Shown here: in pieces, positions 906-15,545 of the stretch
Layout: each line of letters begins with the position of its first letter
Numbering within the stretch: position 1 is the stretch's first letter
Assembly: GCA_001577635.1 (NCBI GenBank)
Contig: LSBP01000031.1
Coordinates: 1 to 36,963 of the forward strand
From: Halomonadaceae bacterium T82-2
Lineage (GTDB): Bacteria; Pseudomonadota; Gammaproteobacteria; Pseudomonadales; Halomonadaceae
Direction of reading: 5' to 3'
DNA: 36,963 nt
The notes under the pieces: generated by a model
Database searches by the model: none
What the model saw: the letters and a program-made list of their open reading frames with translations, nothing else
Told to the model about the DNA's origin: nothing
Translations under genes and position numbers: made by a program

Positions 906-2231
906 CTAACGTTCGCGGGGAAGTGTGATGCTTACGGAGAGTCCGCCATTACAAGAAGATGAGAATGCCACCTCGCCATTGTATTGTGTGACTATCTGTT
1001 TCAAAATAGCTAGTCCCAGTCCGTACCCAGGCTTGCTTTCATCAAGGCGCTTTCCTCGCTGACCAAGCTGCAGTAAAGCGGATTCTTCCACTCCCGGCCC
1101 ATCATCGATGATCTCGATCACGAGGCCTTTATCCATGCATATGTGGCATTCCACATTTTTTCGAGCCCACTTCCCGGCATTGTCGAGTACAATGCCAAGC
1201 ATCTCGTTCAGGTCGTGTCTTTCGATTGCAACGGTCGTCTCCTTGGGCAGGAGAACGTTAAGGTGAAAACACTTCTCGGGGTATAGCGTGCGCATCATGT
1301 CGACAAGTGTCTCGGCTTCTTCTGCAACAGTGGCGCGCTGAGCACTGCTTGGCCCGGCGAAGCGGGCGCGCTGCAATTCTGCTTTCAGTTGCGCCTGCAT
1401 GCCTTCCAGACGTTCGAGCATAAGCTCTCTTCGCTTATCGTCGATAGGCCGTCTGCCGCGCAAAACCTGAGTGACCGCCGCCAAGGGCGTTTGGAGAGTG
1501 TGGGACAAGTCAGCGACTGCCGCACGTGAGCGAAGGATCCGGCGCTGCATTTCTTCCATAAAACGGTTTAGCTGAGAAATCAAATCATCGAGCTCAGAGG
1601 GGGCCTCAATCTCCAGTCGATCACGCTGGCCCATTTGAAATTCATTTAGTTGGTGTTTTAGTCGGAACAGCGACCGAAAGCTTCGGTTGACGGCGAACAG
1701 ATTTAGAGTAATTAGCAGCAGGAGAAGGATTCCTGATATTCCACCTATCCACCACTGCAAGGCTCCTAATCCCTTCTCCACTTTAGAAAAGTCTTCACCG
1801 ATCAGGAGGGTGCTGGTTTTCCCGCCAAGTTCCAGCCGTGTTCGATAGAATAGAGAATGGCTACCTTGCCAATGTATATCAAAGAGCTCGCTGCTGGTCT
1901 CATTCAGGAATGGCTCAAGGGGTAGCAGCCAGCTTGGGTCGGAAGTATATTCTTGATCGCCTATGCGCAAGACATACAAGTGATGAAAAACTTCCGAAGC
2001 CAGAGCGCTTGGTTGAAGTGATGACCTCGGAGGACCATCAATCTTCTTGAGCCTTTCGACAGTATAATGGGCCTCCTGACGCAGACGGTCGCCCAGAAAA
2101 TCTCGTGCCAAGTCACGCATCAGCATGTCATGCAAAAACCAGGTGACACCGACGACAATGATTGCAACCATTCCGAGGCGAGCCAGTAGACTGACTCTTA
2201 AACTTCTTCGATCAATTCGAAGGAAGGACAT
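906..2231 (-). CDS. copS: Sensor histidine kinase of the copper two-component system (CopS-like)
   Basis: 441-residue membrane sensor kinase, last gene of the cop operon, overlapping copR by 20 bp, which indicates translational coupling. TM1 is at about residues 14-34 and TM2 at about 160-181, with a periplasmic sensor region of about 125 residues between them. A HAMP-like linker is followed by the dimerisation helix with the phospho-acceptor His244 in DLSHTLQTPL. The ATPase domain has the N box around Asn351, DDGPG at 376-380 and GYGLGL at 402-407. The H-box reads SHTLQTP rather than the usual SHELRTP, closer to PhoQ-type kinases. The role in copper sensing is inferred from its place behind copABCD and copR. 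It presumably phosphorylates the adjacent regulator at Asp51. Confidence 0.88.
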   Translation of the reverse strand: MSFLRIDRRSLRVSLLARLGMVAIIVVGVTWFLHDMLMRDLARDFLGDRLRQEAHYTVERLKKIDGPPRSSLQPSALASEVFHHLYVLRIGDQEYTSDPSWLLPLEPFLNETSSELFDIHWQGSHSLFYRTRLELGGKTSTLLIGEDFSKVEKGLGALQWWIGGISGILLLLLITLNLFAVNRSFRSLFRLKHQLNEFQMGQRDRLEIEAPSELDDLISQLNRFMEEMQRRILRSRAAVADLSHTLQTPLAAVTQVLRGRRPIDDKRRELMLERLEGMQAQLKAELQRARFAGPSSAQRATVAEEAETLVDMMRTLYPEKCFHLNVLLPKETTVAIERHDLNEMLGIVLDNAGKWARKNVECHICMDKGLVIEIIDDGPGVEESALLQLGQRGKRLDESKPGYGLGLAILKQIVTQYNGEVAFSSSCNGGLSVSITLPRER

Positions 2232-2877
2232 AACCTTGTCCGCGCCGAGTTTGAATGCGATCTTTCCCTATGATGCGTCGCAGGCGACCGATATAGACTT
2301 CGACCAGGTTGGGCGAGGCAACATCTTGATCAAGCGCATACAGCTGCTCCAACAAGCTGGCCTTGGAGTGTATTCTGCGTGGGTGGCGCATCATATAGCG
2401 CAGAAGGCAGAACTCAGTAGCTGTTAGTGTCTGCCATGCTTCCCCGTTTCGGCTAACCTGTCCGGTTTCCTCGTTCAGCCATATGTCATTCACTTTCATG
2501 ATCGTTTCCATGCTGCCCCTCCCCCGGCGGAGCAGGGCATGGAGTCTGGCCAGTAGCTCTTCCTCGTGATAGGGCTTGGTTAAATAATCATCTGCCCCTC
2601 GGCGTAATCCGGCGACCTTGTCAGACCAGCTATCCCGTGCAGTCAGGGCAAGCACGGGCAAGCATTTTCCTTCTCGTCGCCAGCGCTCGAGCAGGTCAAG
2701 CCCTGACGCATCGGGCAACCCCAGGTCGAGGATGGCGATGCTATAGGCTTCGCTCGCCATCAAGGCACTTGCTTTGCGAGCGTGACTGGCAATGTCGACG
2801 CGATATCCTTTGTCTTCAAGAGCTTCTGCGAGGCTTTCGGCCAAGAGGCTATCATCTTCCACGAGCAGCAATCGCAT
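2212..2877 (-). CDS. copR: Response regulator, OmpR/PhoB family (CopR-like)
   Basis: 221 residues, the normal size for the family. The receiver domain (about 1-115) has the acidic pocket Glu7-Asp8-Asp9, phospho-acceptor Asp51 (AILDLGLPD), Thr79 and Lys101 (YLTKPY). The C-terminal winged helix (about 125-221) includes TATEFCLLRYMMRHP and the recognition region VEVYIGRLRRIIG. It lies 53 bp after copD and overlaps the kinase gene, as in the copABCDRS arrangement of Pseudomonas. It is expected to activate copABCD when copper is high. A possible binding site is the ATTCAG direct repeat at 7042-7058. The copper role is inferred from context. Confidence 0.9.
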   Translation of the reverse strand: MRLLLVEDDSLLAESLAEALEDKGYRVDIASHARKASALMASEAYSIAILDLGLPDASGLDLLERWRREGKCLPVLALTARDSWSDKVAGLRRGADDYLTKPYHEEELLARLHALLRRGRGSMETIMKVNDIWLNEETGQVSRNGEAWQTLTATEFCLLRYMMRHPRRIHSKASLLEQLYALDQDVASPNLVEVYIGRLRRIIGKDRIQTRRGQGYVLPSN

Positions 2878-2930
2878 GGTTTAGCTCCCAGGCTTCACCG
2901 TATTAGGCAGCGCTTCAGCCCATATCGAGA

Positions 2931-3794
2931 TCATGACTCGAAAGGTGATGCAAAAGTAGTGAGCGCTGCTGTAATCGCGAGAATAGCACCAACGGCGACA
3001 ACTTCTAAGGCAATGGAGCGGCGCAATGCCACGCTGGCTCCCGGCACTTCCTCAGCGAATCTGGGTACGAGCCGGAAGCGATTAAGACCGGCGAGAGCCA
3101 ACAGGCTGATGAATACCAGAAGCTTGAAGACAAGCAGGTTGCCGTAGTGACTCTCCCAGAGAGTCGATAATTGGTCAAGCAGTAGCCAAGCGACAGAGCC
3201 CCCTGCCAGTATGAGTGCGCCGACGAGGACCATTGCCAATGTACCGAATCGTTCGAGTACCCTGGCGACGCGGGAAGTATCGGGCGCATAGCTCATCCAT
3301 ATCAATGGCCACAATGCGCCGATCCAGAAGCTTACTGCCAGAAGGTGTAGTGCAATCAGCCCCCCGCCTGCCAGCCGGGCTTCCAGATCCGCTGTATGGC
3401 CTATCAGTGCAAACGATGCCACGGTCAGTACCGCACCCAACGCCCCAATGCCATACCCAAGGGGACGGCGCAGCCAGACGAAACCAATCAACGCCAAGCC
3501 GAGCCAGCGAAGCTTTGTACTGGTGCCCACTACAGACTCGAACAGCATGTTCAGATAGAAGGGCTCGAACATTCCACTGAGTCCCATGCCACTCAGGAAG
3601 CCGGAGCGAAGCGGAATTGCCATGGCTGTCAGGAGGCTGCCAGCCAGTGCCAGGCCTAGCGTCATCGTTACGACCCTGTTGCGTTCACGCACATTCAAGG
3701 TCGGAAACAGGATCAGAAACAGCGCTCCACCGGCCGCGCTTAACACGACAGCATAGCTTGCTATTTTCAGTATGAAGCTAGCCAGCTCCCACAT
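2931..3794 (-). CDS. copD: Copper resistance inner-membrane protein CopD
   Basis: 287-residue polytopic membrane protein with about eight hydrophobic segments, for example residues 10-30, 40-60, 90-105, 112-132 and 142-165. Family features include the SFWIGALWPLIWM segment near residue 155 and the conserved arrangement of aromatic and histidine residues (LIALHLLAVSFW). CopD proteins are thought to carry copper across the inner membrane together with periplasmic CopC. The gene starts 27 bp after the end of copC and precedes copR, in the same transcript. The length matches the short bacterial CopD form without a fused CopC domain. Confidence 0.9.
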   Translation of the reverse strand: MWELASFILKIASYAVVLSAAGGALFLILFPTLNVRERNRVVTMTLGLALAGSLLTAMAIPLRSGFLSGMGLSGMFEPFYLNMLFESVVGTSTKLRWLGLALIGFVWLRRPLGYGIGALGAVLTVASFALIGHTADLEARLAGGGLIALHLLAVSFWIGALWPLIWMSYAPDTSRVARVLERFGTLAMVLVGALILAGGSVAWLLLDQLSTLWESHYGNLLVFKLLVFISLLALAGLNRFRLVPRFAEEVPGASVALRRSIALEVVAVGAILAITAALTTFASPFES

Positions 3795-3821
3795 GACTTT
3801 CTCCTTGGCTTTTTTCCATTA

Positions 3822-4184
3822 TTATTTATCAGTCAAGTTGAATGAGAAGGTGTCTCTCATGCCATGCCCGTCGTTTGACATCGAGCGCCATTCAACAGTG
3901 TAGTGGCCAGTATCGAGTTCTGGTAATGGCAATACATAGTCGGCTTTCAATTGGCGACCGGGTACCTTAAGTGTTATTGAATCCCCATCTTGTGGGGTCA
4001 AGGATACATAAGTTAGAAAAAGCGGTGATGTGAAATTCAGTTCGAGCTCGTCAGGCACATTGTTGACCGTGGAACCTTCCGCGGGTGAAGCACTTTCCAA
4101 TGCCGAATGAGCTTGAGCAAGGGTAGCGCTCACAAGAGTAATTCCAAATATAAAGGTGGCGGTCAGGGTCTTTTTAAAGTGCAT
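3822..4184 (-). CDS. copC: Periplasmic copper-binding protein CopC
   Basis: 120 residues with a clear Sec signal peptide (positively charged MHFKK, a hydrophobic stretch, then AQA just before His26). Cleavage there leaves the mature protein starting HSALESASPAEG, the classic CopC N terminus in which the amino group and His1 bind Cu(II). The C-terminal DGHGMRDTFSFNL segment supplies the conserved Asp and His that complete that site. The Met-rich Cu(I) loop of Pseudomonas CopC is largely absent, so this looks like a Cu(II)-only type. The fold is a small Greek-key beta-barrel. It is placed between copB and copD, and should deliver copper to CopD or CopA. Confidence 0.92.
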   Translation of the reverse strand: MHFKKTLTATFIFGITLVSATLAQAHSALESASPAEGSTVNNVPDELELNFTSPLFLTYVSLTPQDGDSITLKVPGRQLKADYVLPLPELDTGHYTVEWRSMSNDGHGMRDTFSFNLTDK

Positions 4185-4232
4185 CGATAGATCCTCGTTT
4201 TTCAGTTGAGTTGATGGTTGACTTCCTGCCTT

Positions 4233-5003
4233 TCAAAACCACATTCGAACACCGGCAACAACGCCAGATCCTTCGGTTTCACCCAGCGCTTCCCGGGTCA
4301 GTTCGGCGGTTTTTCCGTACTGCTTCTCCCAGTAGGTGCCGATATAAGGCGCAAGCTTTCGAGTGACCTCATAGCGCAATCGCATACCTGCGCGAGTATA
4401 ATTAAGTCCTCGGACTACACTGAACTCCTCGACATCGCTTGTTGCTGCTTCGGCTTCCACTCGTGGCTGCAAGATGACTCGCTGAGTCATCCTGATTTCG
4501 TACTCTGCTTCCAGGCTTGCCGATACATCGCCTTCGTCGCTGACCCTCAGTGCGGTATCCACCTCGAACTGATAGGGTATCGTGCCGAGCAGGCCGATGA
4601 CGGCGAAGGTTCGCTCGGGGTGATCGCTGGACGCAATGCCTCCCTGATAGCCGATACCGCCCTGCAATTCCCAGAAATCGGCAATCAGATGGCTATAGAG
4701 CAGGTCTAATGTCTCGAACTCGGCATCTTCCCCGTCGCCCTGCCGGTTTTTTCCTTCGCCCTTGATATAAAGACGCTGAAAATCTCCTCCGTACCATCCC
4801 TGGAAATCCCAGGCGATGGCATCTTTGTTTTCATCCGTCCAGACATATTCCAGACGATCGACGAGAAGGGTGCCGAAATTATGTTCTGTCATCGGCAGCC
4901 CCCAGCCGGGGGGCGCATCATGACTGCTGTTAGTCTGGGCTTGTGCTGTCGATACCAGGGCAAGAGTGCCCACACCGAACAAGATACGGGTCGTAAAACG
5001 CAT
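4233..5003 (-). CDS. copB: Copper resistance outer-membrane protein CopB
   Basis: 256 residues. A Sec signal peptide (about 1-22, ending AQAQT) is followed by alternating hydrophobic/polar beta-strand sequence ending in the aromatic residue of VRMWF, as in outer-membrane barrels. Segments such as VWTDENKDAIAWDFQGWYGGD, split here by short loops, and RLRYEVTRKLAPYIGTYWEKQYG are typical of CopB/PcoB. The Met/His-rich N-terminal repeat region found in many CopB proteins is missing, so this is the short form. The start lies 12 bp after the copA stop. CopB is thought to work with CopA in sequestering or moving copper at the outer membrane. Confidence 0.9.
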   Translation of the reverse strand: MRFTTRILFGVGTLALVSTAQAQTNSSHDAPPGWGLPMTEHNFGTLLVDRLEYVWTDENKDAIAWDFQGWYGGDFQRLYIKGEGKNRQGDGEDAEFETLDLLYSHLIADFWELQGGIGYQGGIASSDHPERTFAVIGLLGTIPYQFEVDTALRVSDEGDVSASLEAEYEIRMTQRVILQPRVEAEAATSDVEEFSVVRGLNYTRAGMRLRYEVTRKLAPYIGTYWEKQYGKTAELTREALGETEGSGVVAGVRMWF

Positions 5004-5015
5004 GGCGATGGCTCC

Positions 5016-6848
5016 TTAGGCAACCCTGACGACCCGGAACATGCCGGCATCCATGTGATAGAGAAGGTGGCAATGAAACGCCCAGAGGCCAGGCGCATCG
5101 GCACTGACCAGTGCGGAAACCCGCTCGCCGGGCTTGATATTCAACGTATGCTTGCGGGGAATCAGCTCACCGGCGCCGTTTTCCAGCTCCATCCACATGC
5201 CGTGTAGATGAATGGGATGCTCCATCATGGTCGTATTGGTAAAGATGAGCCGGAGGCGCTCGCCGTGTTCGAAGTGAATGGGCCCATTCACTTCGCTGAA
5301 CTTCATGCCATCGAATGACCACATGTAGCGTTTCATGTTGCCGGTCAGTTGCAGCTCCAGTTCACGCCCTGGCGGTCGACGGTCGGGCCAGGGCGCATAG
5401 GCCTTGAGATCGCGATAGACCAATACCCGGCGTGCGGCGGGATCGATACCGATTCCCGGCTGATCATAGTGCGAGCCGGGCTGTGCCGTGCCTGCCGGCA
5501 GTAGCCCACGGCTGCGACTCGCCGGTGCCGGGTTCTTGTCGCCAGGGAAGGCCATGCCCTGCATGGCGGCGTGATCCATGCCTTGCATGGCGGAATGATC
5601 CATGCCCTGCATGGCGGAGTGATCCGTGCCCGGGGTGCCGGCGTGATCCGTGCCCGGCATGGCGGCGTGATCCCTGTCCTGGACATCGGAGTGGTCCATG
5701 CTGCCGTGTGCACTCATGGCCTCCATGCCGCGATCGGGTATGCTTCGCCGCGGTGGAATGGGGGCCGCCATGCCCAGCCGTGGTGCCAGAGTGCCGCGTG
5801 CATAGCCGCTGCGGTCCATGGACTCGGCGAACAGGGTGTAGGCACGATCCGCTTCAGGCTCGACGAGAACATCGTAGGTTTCGGCCACGGCAATGCGGAA
5901 TTCATCCACCGGCACCGGTTGCACCGGCTGGCCATCGGCAGCGACCACGGTCATCGTCAGACCGGGGATGCGCACATCGAAATAGCTCATTGCCGAGCCG
6001 TTGATCACCCTCAGGCGTATCTTCTCACCGGGCTTGAAGAGAGCCGTCCAGTTGTCCTGAGGGGCGTGGCCATTCATCAGGAAGATATAGGTAGTACCGG
6101 TGACATCGGCGAGGTCACGGGAACTCATGCGCATCTGCGCCCACATCGAGCGTTGTGCCAGCGTATCGGCGACGCCGTTCTTGGCCACGTCGGCGAAGAA
6201 ATCGGCAATCGTGCGCTCCTGACGGTTGTAGTAGCCCTCCGACACTTTCAGGTGGCGGAAGACATCCTTCGGGTCCTCGAAGGTCCAGTCGGTCAGCAGC
6301 AGCACGTGTTCGCGATCATAGACGAACGGTTCGGGCTCGGCGGCATCGATGATTATCGGGCCCGCATGACCGAGCTGCTCCTGCAGCCCCGAATGGCTGT
6401 GGTACCAGTAGGTACCGTTCTGGCTGACCGGGAAGCGGGCGGTGAACGTCTCTCCCGGGGCGATACCGGCGAAGCTGACCCCAGGCACCCCATCCATTTC
6501 CGGAGGCAGGAGAAAACCATGCCAGTGTGCCGACGTCTGCTCCTCGAGCAGGTTGGTCACCCTCAGGACCGCTTCCTGTCCCTCTCGCAGACGTATCAAG
6601 GGCCCGGGACTGGTGCCATTGAGAGTGATGGGACGACCCGTCTTGCCGGCGATAGTCCGCGTTTCCCGCCGGATCGCCAGCGAAATTTCGGGCCCCTGTT
6701 CAACGCCCTGGGGATGCCCTCTACCGAGGCCGACAGGATTCGCCCAGGCGGGGCGCAAGCCCAGGGCTGCGGTTGAAAGGCCCAGCGCGGAAGCGACCTT
6801 GAGCAGTTGACGCCGAGACAGCATCGATACAGCCGGGGAAAGCGGCAT
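5016..6848 (-). CDS. copA: Copper resistance multicopper oxidase CopA
   Basis: 610 residues from ATG at 6848, chosen because AGGA lies seven bases upstream and the Tat motif SRRQLLK then sits at residues 11-17; an earlier ATG at 6899 lacks a ribosome site. After the signal (cleavage near PAWA-NP) come three cupredoxin domains. Copper ligands are visible: His108 and His110 (HWHG), His150 and His152 (YWYHSHSG), His544, His547 and His549 (HPIHLHG), and HCH at 592-594 with His598 and Met603. Between domains 2 and 3 lies a Met/His/Asp repeat region that can bind extra copper. The enzyme oxidises Cu(I) and stores copper in the periplasm. It is the first gene of copABCDRS. Confidence 0.95.
   Translation of the reverse strand: MPLSPAVSMLSRRQLLKVASALGLSTAALGLRPAWANPVGLGRGHPQGVEQGPEISLAIRRETRTIAGKTGRPITLNGTSPGPLIRLREGQEAVLRVTNLLEEQTSAHWHGFLLPPEMDGVPGVSFAGIAPGETFTARFPVSQNGTYWYHSHSGLQEQLGHAGPIIIDAAEPEPFVYDREHVLLLTDWTFEDPKDVFRHLKVSEGYYNRQERTIADFFADVAKNGVADTLAQRSMWAQMRMSSRDLADVTGTTYIFLMNGHAPQDNWTALFKPGEKIRLRVINGSAMSYFDVRIPGLTMTVVAADGQPVQPVPVDEFRIAVAETYDVLVEPEADRAYTLFAESMDRSGYARGTLAPRLGMAAPIPPRRSIPDRGMEAMSAHGSMDHSDVQDRDHAAMPGTDHAGTPGTDHSAMQGMDHSAMQGMDHAAMQGMAFPGDKNPAPASRSRGLLPAGTAQPGSHYDQPGIGIDPAARRVLVYRDLKAYAPWPDRRPPGRELELQLTGNMKRYMWSFDGMKFSEVNGPIHFEHGERLRLIFTNTTMMEHPIHLHGMWMELENGAGELIPRKHTLNIKPGERVSALVSADAPGLWAFHCHLLYHMDAGMFRVVRVA
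5553..5672 (-). repeat. Five 24-bp tandem repeats inside copA (DHxAMQGM units)
   Basis: Five consecutive 24-bp units begin at 5553, 5577, 5601, 5625 and 5649. Each encodes an eight-residue unit of the type DHSAMQGM, DHAAMPGT or DHAGTPGT. The first three are nearly identical; the last two have diverged, with Met residues replaced. Such units supply Met and His copper ligands in CopA, and their number varies between strains in this family. Confidence 0.9.
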
Positions 6849-7189
6849 GGCACGTTCCTGGTGAACTGAAGCGAAGTAGGCGCCAGTATCACATGCCAAG
6901 CTGAACCCAGACTGAGTCCATGACGGGTCTCCGGCCCGGCGCGAATCAGTTTTTCCAGCCGGCCAGGCTGCCGTGCGAAGGTGTGTTCAGCAGGACGGTA
7001 GCGGGAGTCGCCTTTTCGATGAAGCCCTTGCAAGGTGCTGGATTCAGCTAGAATTCAGGAAGTGCCACTATGGTGTCGCTTGAAAGAAACGACCTTTAGC
7101 CCTGTATTGAGGACGTTCACAGTCAGGAACGCGTAGCAAGGCCAGGAAGCGCCTTGTCCATCGATGTGCCAGCGAGGCGAGGGATTCGC
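6849..7189. promoter_or_regulatory. Divergent control region between copA and the nuo-like operon
   Basis: 341 bp without a gene; both flanking operons are transcribed away from it. It should hold promoters for copA (leftward) and the complex I-like operon (rightward). The most structured part is the ATTCAG direct repeat at 7042-7058. I found no convincing pair of -35 and -10 boxes and no CueR-type palindrome. Confidence 0.45.
7042..7058. promoter_or_regulatory. Direct repeat ATTCAG-N5-ATTCAG, possible response-regulator site
   Basis: Two exact ATTCAG hexamers start 11 bp apart (7042 and 7053), about one helical turn. OmpR-family regulators commonly bind such spaced direct repeats. It lies about 195 bp upstream of copA and 130 bp upstream of nuoA, so it could serve either. 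Linking it to CopR is inference. Confidence 0.3.
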
Positions 7190-7537
7190 ATGGAGCTGTT
7201 CACTCTTCTTCTCATCCTGTTGATCAGCCTGTCGGCAGCACTCGCCGTGCAGTGGTGGCCGTTGCGCCATCAAGCGATGCCGAGCTATTCGCAACGGGCC
7301 CCTTTCCTGGGGGGTGGTCGACCCGATACCCATGCCTGGAGTCGCTATCACATTCGCTATTACCCCATGACACTGCTCCTGATCGCCTTCGAGATGGAGA
7401 TGATGTTCATGTATCCGTGGGCGGTGGTGTATGTCGAGAAGGGCCTGGTGGCGATGATGGAGATGGGCATGTTCCTCGCCATCCTGTCGGTGGGCATCGT
7501 CTACGCCTGGCGAGAGGGGGTGTTCAAGTGGCAATGA
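7190..7537 (+). CDS. nuoA: NuoA-like subunit of a complex I-like membrane complex
   Basis: 115 residues from ATG at 7190, preceded by GAGGG at a good distance; an in-frame TTG at 7154 has no better site. Three membrane helices. The conserved NuoA segments are recognisable: FEMEMMFMYPW (usually FDVEALFLYPW) keeps the two acidic residues, and the last helix ends in the typical VYAWREGVFKW. The loop motif normally YECG or YESG is replaced by FLGGG. In complex I, NuoA is at the joint between the quinone site and the proton channels. It is the first gene of an eight-gene operon and overlaps the next gene. Confidence 0.85.
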   Translation: MELFTLLLILLISLSAALAVQWWPLRHQAMPSYSQRAPFLGGGRPDTHAWSRYHIRYYPMTLLLIAFEMEMMFMYPWAVVYVEKGLVAMMEMGMFLAILSVGIVYAWREGVFKWQ

Positions 7538-8874
7538 GCTGGCTGAGACGACTCGCCGGCGAGGCTCCGGTACCGGTCTTTCCGGTCCTGGGCGTTGGCG
7601 AACATGCGGCGCTGCATCGCCTGGCGCTGACGCCGGGCGTCGAGCTGGTCGACTCTCCCCGCCACGCCAGCGTGATGCTGGTGGCGGGGAGGGTGCCGGC
7701 CAGTCTGCACGATGAGCTGCGCCGGGTGCACGACCAGCATCCCTGGCCTTTCGCCACGCTGTGGTATCGCAGCCGGCCACTGCCCGGACTCGAGGGCGCC
7801 ATGCAAAGCGACGATCTCGAGGGCCTGGCCGTCGACCTCCGCCGCCTGCATCGGGAATTGATGGACGGCCGGCGCGACAGTTCGCCCCGGCTGTTGCCGG
7901 ATGTCCCGCCGAATCCCTGGGAAGGGCTGGGTGACGACGGCCATGGCGGCGAAGGCATGATGGGCGGGGTGCCCTACGGCCGGCCGATGGCAATGAACAT
8001 GCAAGATGACCTTCGCGACGGCTTGACCCTTGATTCCCTGACCTTTCGGCTGGGGCCTTTCTTTCCGGCCTTTCCCGCTGGCCTGGGGGCGGAAATCACC
8101 CTGCAGGGTGACGTGATTCAGACATGGACCACCCAGAATGCTCCCTACCCGGTCGCGCTCGATGCGGTCTTCCGGGAGGCCCGTGAGCGTCCGGTCCCCA
8201 TCGCGCGCCTGGAACTGGCACGAGCGCGCTACCACCTGCAGCGCCTCTACCATGGCTTGCGGCTTGCCGGGCTCGAGCGTACCGCCCTGCAGGCATTGCG
8301 CCTGGCGAGTGAGATGACGCCGGAGCGCATGCAGCAGGAGGCGCGAGCCAAGGCGGTGGAGCATGCATTGCAAGGGCTGCGCCGGCGGCTGGTGCGTTGC
8401 GGGTTCTTCACGCTGGCGGCCTTGGACGAAGGCTGCCTGAGCGCCGAGCAGGCATGCCAGATCGGCGGTCCGGCGGCGCGCGCGTCGGGCATCGAGGAGG
8501 ATCTGCGCAGTGAGGATACCGAGTACCGTCGTCTGGGTTTCGCGCCGATCTGCCACAGCGGCGGCGATAGCCGGGCGCGCTGGCAACAATACCTGGCCGA
8601 GATCGCCCAGTCGTTGCAACTGGCGTGCCAGGCCGTCAGTGACAACCGCTATACCCACGAAAGCGGTGCCGTCGAGACACCGCGCGGCGCATGGCGCGAC
8701 CGGCGGCCCGCCGATGTCAGTACGCTGCTCGACGACCTGTTGCCGGGGCTGGAGTGGGACACCGCCCTGGCCAGCCTGGCCAGCCTCGATCTCGCGGGCG
8801 TTGCCGAATGGCCGCCTGGCGCTGACGAGGCATCGGCCTCACGCCCCGATGCCGAGACGGAGCGCTCCCGATGA
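7528..8874 (+). CDS. Fused, metal-free NuoB-NuoD-like protein
   Basis: 448 residues from GTG at 7528, which has AGGGGG seven bases upstream; ATG at 7534, overlapping the nuoA stop, is the alternative. Residues 1-130 resemble NuoB: SPRHASVMLVAGRVPASLHD followed by LRRVHDQHP matches the NuoB SPRQADLMIVAG...YDQMP region, but this half has no Cys, so no N2 Fe-S cluster. After a Gly/Met-rich linker (about 135-160), residues 165-375 resemble NuoD/hydrogenase large subunits: LTFRLGPFFPAFPAGLGAEI replaces the GPQHPxTHG strand with both His lost. Later segments (GPAARASGIEEDLR and GGDSRARWQQYLAEI) match the conserved C-terminal part. No [NiFe] ligands. It probably caps the membrane arm. Its activity is unknown. 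Confidence 0.7.
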   Translation: MAMSWLRRLAGEAPVPVFPVLGVGEHAALHRLALTPGVELVDSPRHASVMLVAGRVPASLHDELRRVHDQHPWPFATLWYRSRPLPGLEGAMQSDDLEGLAVDLRRLHRELMDGRRDSSPRLLPDVPPNPWEGLGDDGHGGEGMMGGVPYGRPMAMNMQDDLRDGLTLDSLTFRLGPFFPAFPAGLGAEITLQGDVIQTWTTQNAPYPVALDAVFREARERPVPIARLELARARYHLQRLYHGLRLAGLERTALQALRLASEMTPERMQQEARAKAVEHALQGLRRRLVRCGFFTLAALDEGCLSAEQACQIGGPAARASGIEEDLRSEDTEYRRLGFAPICHSGGDSRARWQQYLAEIAQSLQLACQAVSDNRYTHESGAVETPRGAWRDRRPADVSTLLDDLLPGLEWDTALASLASLDLAGVAEWPPGADEASASRPDAETERSR

Positions 8875-9803
8875 TCATCGATGAGCTGGTACTGCCAGTG
8901 CTGATGGTATTGATGACGCTGGTGGCGGGCGTTTACCTGGTCGCCGTGATCGACCGCTGGCTGGCGGGTGCCTTCGGCCTGCCGCAGGGTGGAAGTGCCT
9001 GGCTGGGGCCCCTGCGCCGCGGGGCCTGGCTGCTCACCCAGCATGCCAATGCGACCGAGGCGCCGGACTGGCAGGCCTGGCGGCTGGCGCCGGCGCTTTA
9101 CCTGGCGCTGGCTGCCATGGGGCTGGCGGTGGTGCCGTGGTCGGCTACGCTGGTCGCGACCGACCTGACCACCAGCGTGGTGCTGTGGGGCAGCGTGGAG
9201 GCGCTGGCCACGGTGGTGATCTTCCTGCACGGCTGGTCGGCCAACGCCCTGTTCGCGCTGATCGGTGCCTATCGCTACGTGGCCCTGGGGCTCTCCTACA
9301 TCCTGATCAGCATGTTCGTGCTGATCGGCGTGGCCCTGCCTGCCGAATCGTTGCAGTTCACCCAGGTCGTCACCTCGCAGACGGAGATGTGGAACGTCGT
9401 GCGACAGCCACTGGGGCTGCCGCTGTTCCTGATCGTGGGGCTGGGCATGACCTTCTGGGGGCCGCTCAACCTGGCCGATGCCGACGACCTGGCAGGGGGC
9501 ACCGCCTCGGAAGTGTCGGGGCCGCCGCGGCTGGTATGGGACGTCGCCCGGGCGGCGATGCTGGTGGCCTTCAGTGGCGTGGCGGCGAGCGCCTTCCTGG
9601 GCGGCTGGTTGGGCCCCTGGCTGCCGGGGCCGCTGTGGATGCTGATCAAGATGCTCGCTGTGCTGGTTGTGCTGTTGCTGCTCGGGTGGCTGCTGCCGCG
9701 GGTGGCGCCGGAACGCTGCATGACCCTGATGTGGGTGGTGTTGCTGCCGCTGTCGTTCGTCGACCTGCTCTGGGCGGGCATCGCCGCGTTGCTGAACGGA
9801 TAA
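8871..9803 (+). CDS. nuoH: NuoH-like membrane subunit
   Basis: 310 residues with about eight membrane helices, overlapping the preceding gene by 4 bp. The NuoH signature GWSANALFALIGAYRYVA (about 121-138) is clear. The usual PFDLPEAE becomes PLNLADAD (198-205) and TEYSG becomes SEVSG. The Glu of the canonical SYE motif is Ile here (LSYILI), and the N-terminal GPNRVGP loop is not recognisable. NuoH links the quinone cavity to the proton channels in complex I; the altered acidic residues suggest that link works differently here. Neighbours and coupling show that it belongs to the same complex. Confidence 0.8.
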   Translation: MIIDELVLPVLMVLMTLVAGVYLVAVIDRWLAGAFGLPQGGSAWLGPLRRGAWLLTQHANATEAPDWQAWRLAPALYLALAAMGLAVVPWSATLVATDLTTSVVLWGSVEALATVVIFLHGWSANALFALIGAYRYVALGLSYILISMFVLIGVALPAESLQFTQVVTSQTEMWNVVRQPLGLPLFLIVGLGMTFWGPLNLADADDLAGGTASEVSGPPRLVWDVARAAMLVAFSGVAASAFLGGWLGPWLPGPLWMLIKMLAVLVVLLLLGWLLPRVAPERCMTLMWVVLLPLSFVDLLWAGIAALLNG

Positions 9804-9820
9804 ATGGAGAGGCTCGCGTG

Positions 9821-10435
9821 ATGGACTATCCCCTTGGTGTCGATATCGCGTTTCTGCTGCTCGCCGTCCTGGCGGTCGTCTCGGCCTGGCGGGTGTTCTG
9901 CACCGATTCGATGGTGCGCGCCTCGTTCTTCCTGCTGGTGTCGTTCATTGCCGTGGGTGTGATCATGATGCTGCTGGCGGCCGTGTACCTGGGTGTGGCG
10001 ATGTTCTTCATGATGGCCGTCGAGATGATGGTCATGGCGCTGTTCATGGTCATGTTCATGATGAACCCGGCCGGGCTCAATCCGATGATGATGGTCCACC
10101 AGCATCGTCTGTCCATCGGGGCCGGGGTGGCCGCGTTCGTGGTACTCGGCGGTGTGGCGCTGCTGGCCGACTTCCCGGTGCGGCCGTTGCCGGCCGGGCT
10201 CGAACCGGTGCGTTCACTGGGCGAGGAAATGCTCGGCGACTCGATGCTGATCTTCGAGTCGGCCGGCGTCGTGCTGCTCACGACGATGGTCGGCGTGGTG
10301 GTGCTGGCGAGTCATCGCGGACGCTACGGCGGCGCCGCGGAGGGTTCCATGCCACCCGGGCTGGAGCCGGGCGGGGAGCCGGCCGGGATGCCCGAAGCCG
10401 AGGAGGGCGGCGGCCACCACCACCATTGCCACTGA
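9821..10435 (+). CDS. nuoJ: NuoJ-like membrane subunit with His-rich tail
   Basis: 204 residues from ATG at 9821 (GTG at 9818 is also possible), with GGAGAGG just upstream. Five hydrophobic helices; the third region, LGVAMFFMMAVEMMVMALFMVMF split over two helices, corresponds to the NuoJ helix that carries the pi-bulge in complex I. It is very Met-rich. The soluble C-terminal tail (about 165-204) is Gly/Pro/Glu-rich and ends in HHHHCH, which is not usual for NuoJ and could bind a metal ion. It lies 17 bp after nuoH and 37 bp before nuoK. Confidence 0.78.
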   Translation: MDYPLGVDIAFLLLAVLAVVSAWRVFCTDSMVRASFFLLVSFIAVGVIMMLLAAVYLGVAMFFMMAVEMMVMALFMVMFMMNPAGLNPMMMVHQHRLSIGAGVAAFVVLGGVALLADFPVRPLPAGLEPVRSLGEEMLGDSMLIFESAGVVLLTTMVGVVVLASHRGRYGGAAEGSMPPGLEPGGEPAGMPEAEEGGGHHHHCH

Positions 10436-10472
10436 CGGTAATGTCCTCGATCACCTACGCAGGGAGGCGGAA

Positions 10473-10778
10473 ATGACACTCGTCACACTCTTGTTGCTGG
10501 CCGCGGCGCTGATCGGCATCGGGCTCTATGGCGCGCTCTCGCAGCAATCGTTCGTGATGCTGATGATGGGGCTCGAACTGATGCTCAACGGCGTCATGCT
10601 GGCGGCGGTGGCGTTCTGGGCCCTGAGCGGTGCCGGCGCGCCCGAGGGTCAGCTGCTGACCATCGTGGTCATGGCGGTGATGGCCATCGAGATGGCCATG
10701 GGCTTCGCCCTGGTGGTGGCGGTCTTCCGCACCAACCAGGCCGACATGACTGAAGCGCTGAGCGGGTTGAAGCACTGA
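10473..10778 (+). CDS. nuoK: NuoK-like membrane subunit
   Basis: 101 residues, three membrane helices, the normal NuoK size. Both membrane glutamates needed for proton transfer in complex I are present: Glu35 in MMGLELMLNG and Glu73 in AIEMAMGFALVVAVFR. GGGAGG-like sequence (AGGGAGG) precedes the ATG. The stop codon overlaps the nuoL start by one base (TGATG). NuoK is the small antiporter-like subunit of the MrpC type. Of all the subunits here it is among the best conserved, which argues that ion translocation is retained. Confidence 0.88.
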   Translation: MTLVTLLLLAAALIGIGLYGALSQQSFVMLMMGLELMLNGVMLAAVAFWALSGAGAPEGQLLTIVVMAVMAIEMAMGFALVVAVFRTNQADMTEALSGLKH

Positions 10779-12649
10779 TGCTGTGGGTACTGGTCCTCGG
10801 CCCGCTGCTGCTCGCGATACTGGTGTATCTGGCCGGCCGGCGCTGCGGGCGTGCCGCCCTGACGCTGGGGGCGTCGCTGGGCATGCTGGCCACGCTGCTC
10901 CTGGCTTTGGTGGCGGTGATGGGCGATTGGCAGGGCGCCTATCGCTGGAGCGAGACGCTCGTCCTGTCGCTCGAGCTGTCGTCAGCCGGTCGCCTCTTCG
11001 CAGTGATGGTGCCCCTGGTCGCCCTGCCGATCATCGCTTATGCCGGCGTGCACGATCTGCCACGTCGCGATGATCACCACCGCACGACGGCGGGTGGCGC
11101 CCGGTTGCTGGCGTTGCTGGTGGCCTTCGTCGGCGCCATGCAGCTGCTGGTGCTGGCAAACGACCTGCTGACGCTGCTGATTGCCTGGGAGCTGATCGGT
11201 GCCTGTTCCTGGGCGCTGATCTCCCAGCGCTGGGGCGAGGTCGCCGTGGCGCGCGACGCGGCTCATGCCTTCCTGACCACACGCTTCGGCGATCTGGGGC
11301 TGTATATCGCCGCGGCAGCGGTTTTCGCTGGCACCGGCAGTTTCGGTTACACCGACCTGGCCGCCCTCGACGGCGGGCTCAAGCACGTCGCGGTGGCCGG
11401 GATCGTGCTCGCGGCGGCGGCCAAGTCGGCCCAGCTCCCGTTTTCGGCGTGGCTGTTCGCGGCGATGTCGGGGCCGATCCCCGTGTCGGCGCTGCTGCAC
11501 GCCGCGACCCTGGTCGCGGCGGGACTCTACCTGCTTGCCCGGCTGCAGCCGGCGCTGGCGACGGTCGCCTGGTTCGCCCCGGTGGTCATCGCCACTGGCC
11601 TGGCCACCGCTCTGGCCGGCGGCGTGGTCGGCGCCTTGCAGGGGCACGCCAAGAAGCTGCTGGCGGCATCGACGTCGGCCCAGTATGGGCTGATGTGGCT
11701 GGCGGTGGGCGTGGGTTTCCCGGGGGTCGCCCTGGTGCACTTCGTGGCGCATTCTTTCCTCAAGGCCGGGTTGTTCCTGGCGACGGGGATAGCCGAGCGC
11801 CAGACCGGCAGCTACACCCTGGCCGACATGCGTCTCGGCCGGCGCTTGCCGGGGATCGCGATCGCCACGGCGGTGATGGCGCTGGCACTGGCCGGGCTGG
11901 CGCCGATGGGCTTCGCCTGGAGCAAGGAGCAGGTCGTCGCCGCGGCCGGCCAGCAGGGCGCGTGGCTGGCCCTGCTCGTTGCGCTGACCGGTGGGTTGAG
12001 CGCGCTGTATGCCACGCGCTTCCAGTGGCTGGCCTACGGGCGCGCGACCCGGCGTGAATCCAGCGGCCTGCCCGATGCGCCATCACCGTCGACTGTCGAG
12101 CGTGTCACGTTGATGGCCCTGGCCGCTGCCACCCTGCTGCTGTCGCTGTTGTGGTGGCCCGCGGCGCAGGCATGGCTGACCGGGGCGCTGGCCTTGTCGC
12201 TGCCCCAGAGCCACCCCTGGCAGCTGGTCGTCTCGTTGATACTGGTCGTGTTGGGCATTGCCGCGGGCGTGATGCTGGCACGCCGTCCCGAGCAGGCGGT
12301 ACGCGGCTGGCAGGCCCTCGCCGCGAACTGGTTCGGCCTGCCGGTGCTGGCGCAAGGCATCGCCACCCGCGTCAATGCCCTTGGCCACGCCCTGGCACGC
12401 ATCGACGATGCGGTCGTCGACGCCGGCCTGCGCGCGACGGCTCGCCTGGCCCGGTGGCTGGCACGTCACCACGCCCGCGAAGGGGAGTCCCTTGCCGAGG
12501 AGCTGCCGAGATCCCTGTCGCGGCTGGTCGACGAGGGCGGGCGCTGGGCCCGCCAGGCCCAGAGCGGCCAGACGCATCACTATTACACCGGCATCGCGGC
12601 CGGCCTTGTCATCATCCTGCTCATGCTCGTGATAGGAGTCGCCTTGTGA
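10778..12649 (+). CDS. nuoL: NuoL-like proton-pumping subunit
   Basis: 623 residues, similar to E. coli NuoL. The antiporter-type core has Glu138 in IAWELIG, the Lys of AAAKSAQLPFSAWL, HAATLVAAG, and the second-half Lys of HSFLKAGLFL. The C terminus keeps a long amphipathic stretch followed by a final membrane helix (YYTGIAAGLVIILLML), so the lateral helix that clamps NuoM and NuoN in complex I is probably present. It is translationally coupled to nuoK before it and nuoM after it. Charged residues of the proton path look intact. Confidence 0.9.
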   Translation: MLWVLVLGPLLLAILVYLAGRRCGRAALTLGASLGMLATLLLALVAVMGDWQGAYRWSETLVLSLELSSAGRLFAVMVPLVALPIIAYAGVHDLPRRDDHHRTTAGGARLLALLVAFVGAMQLLVLANDLLTLLIAWELIGACSWALISQRWGEVAVARDAAHAFLTTRFGDLGLYIAAAAVFAGTGSFGYTDLAALDGGLKHVAVAGIVLAAAAKSAQLPFSAWLFAAMSGPIPVSALLHAATLVAAGLYLLARLQPALATVAWFAPVVIATGLATALAGGVVGALQGHAKKLLAASTSAQYGLMWLAVGVGFPGVALVHFVAHSFLKAGLFLATGIAERQTGSYTLADMRLGRRLPGIAIATAVMALALAGLAPMGFAWSKEQVVAAAGQQGAWLALLVALTGGLSALYATRFQWLAYGRATRRESSGLPDAPSPSTVERVTLMALAAATLLLSLLWWPAAQAWLTGALALSLPQSHPWQLVVSLILVVLGIAAGVMLARRPEQAVRGWQALAANWFGLPVLAQGIATRVNALGHALARIDDAVVDAGLRATARLARWLARHHAREGESLAEELPRSLSRLVDEGGRWARQAQSGQTHHYYTGIAAGLVIILLMLVIGVAL

Positions 12650-14133
12650 TTCTCACCACTGCGCTGGCCGTGCCCTTGCTGGGCGCTGTCGCACTCGCCG
12701 GCTCAACGCGCTGGAGTGACGCTCGGGCACGTCAGGTCGCGGTCATCGCCGCGGTGCTGTCGCTGCTGGCGCTCGTCGTTGCCTGGGTTGGCTTCGAGCC
12801 GGCCGGGCCGCTGTTCCAGCATGTCGACGAACTGCGCTGGGTGCCGTCGCTGGGCGTCGCTTATCGGGTCGGGGTGGACGGCATCGCACTGTCGGTCGCG
12901 ACGATGAGTGCGCTGCTGTTCGTCGCCGCCATCGTGTATCCGATGGACACGCGCGGCGAGTCGCGTCAGTACTACGCTTGGCTGCTGTTCCTGCAGGCCG
13001 TGTCGCTGGGGGTGTTCCTGGCGCTCGATCTGCTGCTGTTCTACGTGTTCTTCGATCTGACCCTGGTCGGCATGTACTTCCTGATCGGCCGCTGGGGGCA
13101 TGGCGCGCCTCAAGCCTCGGCGCTCAAGTTTTTCCTGTATACCTTTGCCGGGTCGTTGCTGCTGCTGCTGGCGATCATCGGCCTGTATCTGTCGCTCGAC
13201 CCCCACACCTTCGATATGCGGGTGCTGATCGAGCAACAGCCGATGGCCGGGAAGGGGCTGTATGCCGGGCTGGTCTTCCTGGCGTTGATGCTGGGGCTCG
13301 CGATCAAGACGCCGCTGGTGCCGCTGCATACTTGGCTGCCCCAGGCCCACGTCGATGCGCCGGGGCCGGCCTCGGCGATTCTCGCCGGGGTGCTGCTCAA
13401 GATGGGGACCTACGGCATGATCCGCCTGCCGCTGGCGATGCTGCAGGAAACCTTTGCCCGTTACGCCCTGACGGTGGCCGTCATTGCCCTGGTCGCCATC
13501 CTCTACGGCGCGCTGGTCGCCCTGGGCCAGCGGAATCTCAAGCGACGCATCGCCTATACCTCGATCAACCATATGGGCTACACGGTGCTGGGCATCGCCG
13601 TGGCCGCTGCCGCGTTCACCGACGACAGCCTGGTACGCCAGCTGGCCCTGACCGGCGCCACGGTCGAGATGGTGGCGCATGGCCTGATCACCGGCGCCCT
13701 GTTCCTGATCTGCGGTTCCTTCTGGCAGCGTACCGGGGAATATGACCTGGACCACTATGGCGGGCTGGCCAGCCAAGCGCCGCTATTGACCGGCTTTACC
13801 GCACTGGCGGCATTCGCCAGCCTGGGCATGCCGGGGCTGGCCGGCTTCGTTGCCGAGTTCCAGGTCTTCGCCGGCACCTTCGCCATCTATCCCTGGCTGG
13901 CGGTGCTGGGCGTCGTCGGGATATTGATCACCGCGGCCGTGTTCCTGGACATGCTCAGGCGGTTGTTCTTCGGGCGCCTGCCGGTACACCTGGGGCAGTT
14001 TGTCGAGTTGACGCGGCGTGAATGGAGCGTGCTCGGCGTGCTGTCGCTGGGGATCGTCGTCATCGGTGTCGCGCCGCGCTTCCTGCTGACGCTGATCGAG
14101 GCGTCGGCGGGTCTGCTGGTGGGAGGCCACTGA
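12646..14133 (+). CDS. nuoM: NuoM-like proton-pumping subunit
   Basis: 495 residues from GTG at 12646, which overlaps the nuoL stop by four bases (GTGA) and has AGGAG seven bases upstream. About 14 membrane helices. The helix-7/8 Lys residues are present (LGLAIKTPLVPLHTWLPQAHVDAPGPAS split at TPL, and AGVLLKMGTYG). The conserved Glu of the WEMMLVPMYFLI segment is Asp137 here (FFDLTLVGMYFLIG). The substitution keeps the charge. The stop overlaps nuoN by one base. Confidence 0.9.
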   Translation: MILTTALAVPLLGAVALAGSTRWSDARARQVAVIAAVLSLLALVVAWVGFEPAGPLFQHVDELRWVPSLGVAYRVGVDGIALSVATMSALLFVAAIVYPMDTRGESRQYYAWLLFLQAVSLGVFLALDLLLFYVFFDLTLVGMYFLIGRWGHGAPQASALKFFLYTFAGSLLLLLAIIGLYLSLDPHTFDMRVLIEQQPMAGKGLYAGLVFLALMLGLAIKTPLVPLHTWLPQAHVDAPGPASAILAGVLLKMGTYGMIRLPLAMLQETFARYALTVAVIALVAILYGALVALGQRNLKRRIAYTSINHMGYTVLGIAVAAAAFTDDSLVRQLALTGATVEMVAHGLITGALFLICGSFWQRTGEYDLDHYGGLASQAPLLTGFTALAAFASLGMPGLAGFVAEFQVFAGTFAIYPWLAVLGVVGILITAAVFLDMLRRLFFGRLPVHLGQFVELTRREWSVLGVLSLGIVVIGVAPRFLLTLIEASAGLLVGGH

Positions 14134-15545
14134 TGCCCGTCGGCGACCTGCTCCCCGAAATCATTCTATTGCTGGGTGCGGTGATCATCGTGCTGTTCGC
14201 CGCCTTCGCCCCGCATGAGCGCCAGACCTGGGCCGCCGGCCTGGCGCTGGTGACGCTGGCGGCGGCCATGGCGTTCGCGGTGGCGCAGTGGGGTGCATCG
14301 CCGCGCCTGACGTTCTCCGGCGTATGGGCCCTGGATGGCCCGGCCATCGTCGCCAAGTGGCTGATTCTGCTGAGTGGCGCGATAGCCGTGCTGCTGTCGC
14401 CGGACTGGATGCGCAGCGACCCCCGGCATGGCGAGTATTACGCCCTGTGCCTGTTCGCTCTGCTCGGCATGCTGATGATGGCGTCGGCCACCGACAGCAT
14501 GGAGCTGGTGGTCGGGGTGCTGCTGTCGTCGACCGCGAGCTACCCGCTGGTCGCCTACCACCGGGGCTTCCCGCCGGCGCTGGAAGCGGGCATGAAATAC
14601 TTTCTGATCGGGGCGCTGACCAACGCCCTGCTGGTCATCGGGGTGGTCGTGCTGTTCGGCCTGGTCGGCGACACCGACTATCGGCGCCTTGCCGAGGCCC
14701 TCGGCGAGGCCGACCCCTGGGCCCTGAGTCTGGCTACCGCCTGTGTCGTGATCGGGTTGAGCTTCAAGCTCGCGGCATTTCCCGGGCATGCCTGGATGCC
14801 GGACACCGCCCAGGGCGCACCGGCGCCCATCGCCGCGTTGCTGAGCGTGGCGCCCAAGGTGGCCGCCGCGGTGGCACTGGCACGCTTCGTGACCGTGTTG
14901 CCGCCAGGCCAGGTCTGGCCCGCCGTCGTTGCCGGCATCGCGGTGGTGACCATGACACTGGGCAATCTGGCGGCGTTGCAGCAGAGCGACGTGCGTCGTC
15001 TGCTCGGCTGGTCGTCGGTTTCGCAATCGGGCTATGCCTTGATGGCGGTGGTTGTGGTCGGTAGCGATGCCCGCGCCCTGCCGGCCCTGCTGATCTTTCT
15101 GGGCAGCTACGTGCTCGCCAACCTGACGGCCTTCGCCGTGGTCACCCATCTACGCGGGCGCACCGAGCTGACCGACTATCACGGCCTGACGCGAAGCCAG
15201 CCGCTGGCTGTCGCGATATTGATCGTGGCACTGCTGTCACTGGTGGGCATTCCGCCGCTGATTGGCTTCTTCGGCAAGTTCCTGCTCTTCGAGGTGACCA
15301 TCGACGCCGGTTACACCTGGTTGGCGGTGATCGCCGCACTCAACACCCTAGTGTCGCTGTTCTACTACCTGCGGGTGATCGCGGCGACCATGTTCAAGCC
15401 TGCCCGGGGGGCAGTGCACGTGTTGGGCGGCTGGTCATGGGTGACGCTGCTGGCAAGCGTGGGGCTCTTGCTGGTGGTGAGCCTCGGGGTGGAAGGCGGG
15501 CTGGCGATGATGTCCGCGCTGTCGTTCGCCGGCCCGAGCGCTTGA
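14133..15545 (+). CDS. nuoN: NuoN-like proton-pumping subunit, lacking the helix-5 Glu
   Basis: 470 residues from ATG at 14133, with GGGAGG six bases upstream and a one-base overlap with nuoM. Lys residues of the proton path are present in GLSFKLAAFPGHAWMPD and LLSVAPKVAAAV. In an ungapped comparison made from memory with E. coli NuoN, the key Glu of FLGIELISL falls on Leu130 (VVGVLLSST); Glu124 is six residues away. Later segments (RLLGWSSVSQSGYALM, GIPPLIGFFGKFLLF) are well conserved. It is the last gene of the complex I-like operon. No clear terminator follows. Confidence 0.88.
   Translation: MPVGDLLPEIILLLGAVIIVLFAAFAPHERQTWAAGLALVTLAAAMAFAVAQWGASPRLTFSGVWALDGPAIVAKWLILLSGAIAVLLSPDWMRSDPRHGEYYALCLFALLGMLMMASATDSMELVVGVLLSSTASYPLVAYHRGFPPALEAGMKYFLIGALTNALLVIGVVVLFGLVGDTDYRRLAEALGEADPWALSLATACVVIGLSFKLAAFPGHAWMPDTAQGAPAPIAALLSVAPKVAAAVALARFVTVLPPGQVWPAVVAGIAVVTMTLGNLAALQQSDVRRLLGWSSVSQSGYALMAVVVVGSDARALPALLIFLGSYVLANLTAFAVVTHLRGRTELTDYHGLTRSQPLAVAILIVALLSLVGIPPLIGFFGKFLLFEVTIDAGYTWLAVIAALNTLVSLFYYLRVIAATMFKPARGAVHVLGGWSWVTLLASVGLLLVVSLGVEGGLAMMSALSFAGPSA

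Follow-up and report, generated by a model that had tools for sequence, protein, structure and literature searches.

A complex I-like eight-gene operon without redox ligands as a candidate proton-driven copper or silver translocator

It has long been asked by what means the quinone site of complex I drives proton channels that lie far from it. Here we describe a complex I-like operon of Halomonadaceae bacterium T82-2 that has lost its redox ligands and gained metal-binding elements. The operon lies in a 36,963-nt stretch of DNA (GCA_001577635.1, contig LSBP01000031.1, positions 1 to 36,963, forward strand; hereafter the window) and consists of eight contiguous genes in fixed order at 7190-15545, encoding homologues of NuoA, a NuoB-NuoD fusion, NuoH, NuoJ, NuoK, NuoL, NuoM and NuoN (hereafter the octet). 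We consider it very likely that the octet has a non-redox function involving a soft metal. More specifically, and with about an even chance of being right, the sequences suggest that the complex is driven by protons, involves no redox chemistry and translocates Cu(I)/Ag(I), with the complex I coupling region serving as a methionine relay. We propose this because most of the proton-channel residues are kept, no redox input is left, the cytosolic cap appears adapted to soft metals, the core is rich in methionine and copper genes are frequent neighbours. The loss of electron-carrying parts, together with the gain of methionine and metal-binding stretches, suggests that a respiratory proton pump supplied the design for a transporter of copper or silver.

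An earlier note on this DNA, made from the sequence alone, had proposed the eight-gene set and the absence of an NADH module, and gene coordinates and Pfam identities agree with both. On the plus strand, the octet comprises homologues of nuoA (7190..7537; PF00507, 6.7e-24), the 446-aa NuoB-NuoD fusion (7534..8874), and homologues of nuoH (8871..9803; PF00146, 2.1e-42), nuoJ (9821..10435; PF00499, 6e-17), nuoK (10473..10778; PF00420, 5.6e-16), nuoL (10778..12649; PF00361, 3.2e-41), nuoM (12646..14133; PF00361, 1.9e-64) and nuoN (14133..15545; PF00361, 1e-55). Pfam thus recognised NuoA, part of NuoD, NuoH, NuoJ and NuoK, and Proton_antipo_M for NuoL, NuoM and NuoN, while genes for NuoC, NuoE, NuoF, NuoG and NuoI were missing from the octet. 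Among NCBIfam models, the curated cut-off for NDH-1 subunit M (NDH_I_M) was reached by NuoM; since NuoA, NuoH, NuoK, NuoL, NuoN and the fusion matched Nuo models below their cut-offs, these proteins appear, by their scores, to be divergent relatives of Nuo subunits.

Ordinary complex I was rejected as the identity of the octet, as canonical nuo genes were found elsewhere in the same genome (assembly of 3.42 Mb, 55 contigs, 99.88% complete). Contig C29 carries a full-length NuoD match (6.6e-105) with an adjoining SLBB match, a NuoB with CCxxE, a NuoCD with GPNHPSAHG, and NuoA, NuoJ and NuoK; the other canonical nuo frames on this contig were assigned from their size and position only. The presence of these genes on C29 indicates that the octet is an extra complex beside canonical complex I.

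The loss of redox function is seen in the fusion, which has neither N2 cysteines nor quinone-site histidines. Counted from the ATG at 7534, its five cysteines all lie at residues 289-365, and the NuoB half is therefore free of cysteine. No cysteine was found among the conserved columns of an alignment of 54 relatives, and sequence comparison showed that the GPQHPxxHG strand of NuoD is replaced by GPFFPAFPAGL (8053..8085, plus strand). The earlier note had described a Cys-free NuoB half, the loss of both histidines of GPQHPxTHG, the absence of NiFe ligands and a complex unable to carry electrons like complex I; all of these statements hold, with Fe-S, quinone-site and Ni-Fe ligands lost. Its term "metal-free" is misleading, as it applies to the Fe-S and Ni-Fe ligands alone: elements suited to binding soft metals were gained (a Met motif, HMBD and His-rich stretches), and the locus is a copper-resistance cluster.

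Profile and structure comparisons, which that note had called for, supported the NuoB and NuoD origin of the fusion. Pfam detected just the NuoD half (PF00346, 2e-9; residues 290-371, 8401..8646, plus strand), and the NuoB half matched the NCBIfam NuoB model at E 0.0013, far under the curated cut-off. With hhalign, the NuoB encoded elsewhere in this genome aligned to residues 37-81 (E 8.7e-5, probability 60%), and the NuoCD aligned to residues 306-370 (E 8.6e-5, probability 60%). A profile built from the 54 relatives gave 93 matches to PDB sequences and, together with hhalign, placed the NuoB-like stretch at residues 37-82 (7642..7779, plus strand). The best on the NuoB side was a mitochondrial NuoB homologue (9.1e-9, fusion positions 38-82) and the best on the NuoD side a 49-kDa NuoD homologue (1.5e-7, positions 265-357), and among the 60 of 93 matches listed, all were NuoB- or NuoD-type subunits of complex I or NDH, or MbhJ, three of them bearing locus names only. 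An AlphaFold2 model of the fusion (pLDDT 90.2) ranked NuoD chains first in Foldseek (E 3.4e-8, TM 0.42). The NuoD-like half is variable in extent: several alphaproteobacterial fusions among loci L105-L138 are only ~300-400 aa long, most of the NuoD-like helical part at the C-terminus being missing, and some of these short proteins end in His-rich tails. The middle protein of a Pseudonocardia record is annotated as a short frame of 212 aa.

The octet is a conserved unit of Pseudomonadota and Actinomycetota. Strong matches to the fusion (E < 1e-100) were found in 33 of 151 Halomonadaceae genomes, the present one included, and seven more gave weak matches only (E 1e-5 to 1e-3). Across Pseudomonadota, the fusion was present in 9 of 398 genomes, again including the present one (E < 1e-60); the other 33 of the 42 matching genomes scored 1e-12 to 1e-8 over NuoB- or NuoD-sized pieces only, and to judge from these alignments probably contain ordinary Nuo proteins. 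Of 108 loci confirmed in a scan of named genomes, 80 were retained, spread over Alpha-, Beta- and Gammaproteobacteria and Actinomycetota; all counts of 80 loci refer to this set. The neighbourhood survey suggested earlier showed the complete octet in 72 of the 80, with identical order in all 72, while the remaining eight run into contig ends. Octets were also located on plasmids of Halomonas, Roseivivax, Acuticoccus, Nitratireductor, Rubrobacter, Paracoccus and Thioclava, and a NuoJ query recovered further ones on plasmids of Arthrobacter, Pseudonocardia and Mycobacterium, in every case next to a gene for a multicopper oxidase or a heavy-metal P-type ATPase. In the annotated plasmid records examined, the genes are mostly named as NADH-quinone oxidoreductase subunits or hypothetical proteins. 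In a tree from NuoJ and NuoK, 83 family members grouped against 30 canonical ones (support 0.92), and four members with HMBD-type linkers formed a clade (0.99). Individual copies showed some peculiarities: Salinicola peritrichatus carries two octets ~40 kb apart on one contig (L065 and L068), the plasmid copy of Vreelandella sulfidaeris (L022/L098) is in many fragments, which may reflect either true decay or errors of sequencing, and in Martelella the copy (L021) is cut next to a transposase gene.

Metal-binding elements were found in the linker of the fusion and at the end of NuoJ. The two halves of the fusion are separated by the Met-rich linker GGEGMMGGVPYGRPMAM (residues 138-154; 7945..7995, plus strand), in which nearly all positions are invariant or at least 90% conserved among the 54 aligned relatives. 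Its residues 139-150 were modelled at pLDDT < 50 by AlphaFold2, a behaviour that would fit a site becoming ordered upon binding. A GMMGG motif occurred in 79 of 88 fusions read (the L021 frame being unreliable). In HMBD-type relatives, the same linker holds CPMHP copies with His-rich spacers, two each in Nitratireductor and Rubrobacter, three in Paracoccus and five in Thioclava, and three of these four plasmid members matched Pfam HMBD. Loci L034-L037 have one to three CPMHP copies each, and the Mycobacterium member has a His- and Met-rich linker. NuoJ ends in HHHHCH (10415..10432, plus strand), and at least four histidines were present in this tail in 74 of 83 family members versus 1 of 30 canonical proteins; the tail is missing in all four HMBD members. 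Because basic residues occur in loop 1, in loop 3 and beyond the final helix, the NuoJ tail is predicted by the positive-inside rule to be in the cytosol.

Methionines were compared between family sets of NuoA (87), NuoJ (83, two partial sequences dropped) and NuoK (84) and 30 canonical sequences each; the latter are the best-scoring loci from 120 Pseudomonadota genomes and thus biased to close homologues. NuoJ carries a methionine ladder at residues 64-93 (M64, 65, 69, 72, 76, 80, 81, 89, 91 and H93; 10010..10099, plus strand). Methionine at positions 31, 64, 65, 69, 72, 76, 80, 81, 89 and 91 was found in 83/83 family proteins and 0/30 canonical ones, and M142 and M156 in 83/83 versus 1/30 and 3/30, respectively. 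Position 65 is Tyr in 30/30 canonical sequences, corresponding to E. coli Y59, the position of the pi-bulge. Alignments with four NuoJ sequences of solved structure showed no such ladder, and a DNA pattern for it gave no match among viral contigs. An AlphaFold2 model of NuoJ alone, of modest confidence (pLDDT 69.8), predicted a helix at 55-81 that would contain seven of the ten invariant methionines. In NuoA, where Met60, 69, 71, 72, 74 and 94 are typical of the family, M69 and M71 occurred in 87/87 versus 0/30 and M74 in 87/87 versus 4/30, and NuoK M29 and M70 were specific to the family (84/84 versus 0/30). Methionines shared with canonical proteins were NuoA M92 (15/30), NuoK M32 (26/30) and NuoJ M78 (30/30). 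Three further members on Arthrobacter, Pseudonocardia and Mycobacterium plasmids keep the ten NuoJ methionines, M142 and H93, conservation that is selected for, as they were found by a NuoJ query; they also keep NuoA M71, M74 and M92 and NuoK M29, M32, M70 and M74.

Linkage to copper genes is evident in the window and in the family at large. Divergent to the octet, on the minus strand, lies a copper-resistance cluster (906..6899) consisting of CopS (906-2231) and CopR (2212-2877), named from their domains and place, and the Pfam-identified CopD (2931-3794), CopC (3822-4184), CopB (4233-5003) and the multicopper oxidase CopA (5016-6899). Using 12 copper-gene proteins from the window and four plasmid loci as probes (> 40 bits, at most 10 kb from the fusion), we found a copper gene at 39 of 80 loci versus 2 of 40 control regions (Fisher p 4.8e-7), the controls being 20-kb regions placed at round-number coordinates in six complete, operon-bearing genomes, all from one family, Halomonadaceae. 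The proportion was 47/90 when the probe sources and other plasmids were included, and 33/54 among loci of at least 20 kb; L098 and plasmid L022 are the same place. Grouped by genus-like units, 19 of 41 had a copper-positive locus. Neighbours across the loci are mainly of resistance type, namely CopA-D, P1B ATPase and CueR, with multicopper oxidases in many neighbourhoods.

Proton-path residues, given in E. coli numbering, are mostly retained. The earlier note had reported their retention in NuoK and NuoL, which the family alignments corroborated: NuoK E36 was present in 83/83, with E72 as Glu in 73 and Asp in 10, and in NuoL the proton-channel residues E144 and K229 were each present in 82/83 and K399 in 81/83. 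In NuoM, K234 and K265 were conserved in 80/80 and E407 in 78/80, with E144 replaced by Asp in 76/80; in NuoN, K217 was kept in 75/78 and K247 and K395 in 78/78. NuoA E57 was invariant (85/85), and the equivalent of NuoH E157 was Met, Ile or Leu in 73/83 and Glu in 2.

These data can be joined in a single model. The metal would be soft and monovalent, with Cu(I) the most likely candidate and Ag(I) a possible one. It would be gathered in the cytosol by the fusion linker (Met/His/HMBD) together with the NuoJ tail, and would then enter a methionine path in NuoA, NuoJ and NuoK, formed by the ladder of the third NuoJ helix with methionines of NuoA and NuoK nearby. This path would take the place of the coupling site of complex I. 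The energy would come from proton flow through NuoL, NuoM and NuoN, in which the Lys/Glu paths are mostly kept, so that the metal would cross the inner membrane at the cost of the proton motive force, probably outwards. A precedent for feasibility is CusA, a heavy-metal RND pump that, in the available text of its report (PMC8092243), combines a transmembrane methionine relay with a proton relay and may serve as a working model; it belongs to an unrelated protein family and is a trimer of one protein, in contrast to the eight-subunit octet complex. On this model the octet would represent a novel functional class within the complex I superfamily, that of a heavy-metal pump powered by protons and carried on plasmids and chromosomes of Pseudomonadota and Actinomycetota, a claim that we regard as evenly poised between right and wrong.

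Several results weigh against the model. NuoN E133 is lost in 78/78 sequences (Leu in the present NuoN), a change that the earlier note had not noticed and that leaves not all proton paths unaltered. The seven family-specific methionines in the predicted NuoJ helix do not fall on one face (p 0.14), and a one-face arrangement appeared just for a five-methionine subset chosen post hoc. Among the three actinobacterial plasmid members, two have Val in place of NuoA M69, and none keeps NuoJ M156, where Leu or Ile is found instead. GMMGG is missing from L100-L102 and L109, and the NuoJ His tail also from L100-L103 and L130. No copper gene was detected by the 12 probes within 10 kb at 41/80 loci, nor on the Paracoccus and Thioclava plasmids (L025, L026), and all loci were copper-negative in 22 of the 41 genus-like groups. 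Finally, copper boxes were not in excess near nuoA: a search of the window for CusR-like boxes gave 2 matches, with a mean of 0.99 in shuffles.

The earlier note had offered an ion channel, an antiporter or a pump with an unknown partner, which was the right range of options, and left the choice among them open. One alternative is a channel or antiporter for protons or Na+/K+ that is gated by metal: copper bound at the Met/His sites would open or close ion flow and so adjust membrane potential or pH during copper stress, without itself crossing the membrane. This would fit the retention of most proton-path residues in the antiporter-type subunits, the potassium-channel-like genes near five loci and the cytosolic metal-binding elements, which suit a sensor. 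A sensor, however, has no need of ten invariant NuoJ methionines, seven of them in a predicted membrane helix, and we consider this reading unlikely. Alternatively, oxidation of Cu(I) might itself power an ion pump, as was proposed for a Marinobacter cassette from co-location and co-expression in the available text of that report (PMC8233155); many neighbourhoods do contain multicopper oxidases. As the fusion is devoid of Fe-S ligands and quinone-site histidines and the operon shows no obvious electron acceptor, such a pump seems quite improbable.

The sequence settles neither the direction of transport nor the metal, so a copper importer feeding cuproenzymes, or an exporter or importer of another soft metal, also has to be weighed, and multicopper oxidases and cytochromes do lie nearby. 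Neighbouring genes of mainly resistance type, such as CopA-D, P1B ATPase and CueR, and metal-binding stretches that would face the cytosol point the other way, and we give this reading only a slim chance. The lost redox parts and the broken copies of Vreelandella sulfidaeris and Martelella could be taken as signs of a functionless complex I remnant in decay. This was rejected and has next to no probability: the octet is not decayed, as it is complete and in one order in 72/80 loci, with invariant columns in the fusion and the membrane subunits, family-wide methionines and conservation across Pseudomonadota and Actinomycetota.

Comparison with complex I, Mrp antiporters and membrane-bound hydrogenases sets the octet apart. 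Like complex I (NDH-1), it has NuoA, NuoH, NuoJ, NuoK, NuoL, NuoM and NuoN and remnants of NuoB and NuoD; unlike complex I, it is without N2 cysteines, GPQHPxxHG histidines and genes for NuoC, NuoE, NuoF, NuoG and NuoI, and has Met-lined NuoA, NuoJ and NuoK, a metal-binding linker and a metal-binding tail. Antiporter-like subunits are common to the octet, Mrp antiporters, Ehr complexes, the gene set of which has Hyf-like subunits, and membrane-bound hydrogenases. An Mrp operon, for which the small subunits MrpE, MrpF and MrpG are specific, was rejected because the eight genes match Nuo-type Pfam families only; NuoA and NuoH distinguish the octet from Mrp, and none of its eight genes matched a Pfam family of Mrp-only subunits. 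The membrane-bound [NiFe] hydrogenase subunit MbhJ, a NuoB relative, matched the NuoB half at 2.3e-7 in the PDB profile search, but the fusion, having no conserved cysteine, lacks the Ni-Fe ligand cysteines.

A link between nuo-like cassettes and copper genes is already known from Marinobacter. According to the available text of that report, Marinobacter atlanticus carries a nuoADHJKL cassette inside a copper operon, all seven cassette genes were more highly expressed on a 160 mV electrode together with the copper genes, and the authors suggest that energy is obtained from copper redox reactions (PMC8233155). The cassette resembles the octet in having complex I-like genes within a copper operon that are co-expressed with copper genes, a likeness of gene content; it differs in being reported, in the same text, without nuoM and nuoN and with a short NuoL (PMC8233155). 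The word "copper" occurs nowhere in the main text of a survey of complex I in genomes (PMC12361115). No published report of the methionine path, the metal-binding linkers or the eight-gene family was found in a search that left most subscription papers and bioRxiv preprints outside. The octet may be regarded as a natural variant in which the membrane arm is kept and quinone chemistry is swapped for an apparent metal passage at the same junction. If the model is true, complex I-type machinery can couple ion flow to a non-redox process via the quinone-coupling region, which would provide a testable non-redox system for complex I coupling; bacterial handling of copper and silver would also gain a large, so far unrecognised machine.

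The surroundings of the octet gave several further observations. An integrase-type transposase at the edge of the window (2-712, minus strand; Pfam) adjoins the copper cluster, as would suit a mobile island. The intergenic region between the divergent operons was scanned for promoters, terminators and repeats, which yielded nothing of use. At loci without copper matches, a Pfam tally covering 138 of the 204 listed flank proteins found no family in more than 4 of the 138. EgtB-like (18 loci) and EgtD-like (14 loci) ergothioneine genes, identified with Pfam, recur in octet flanks in Halomonadaceae, and at L018 (23102-25374) genes named as Egt lie immediately downstream of the octet; ergothioneine could possibly be a cytosolic copper-handling thiol made beside the complex. 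The potassium-channel-like genes lie near L021, L023, L131, L132 and L137, and APC-family permease genes occur in the flanks of L018, L022, L023, L082, L084, L086 and L098.

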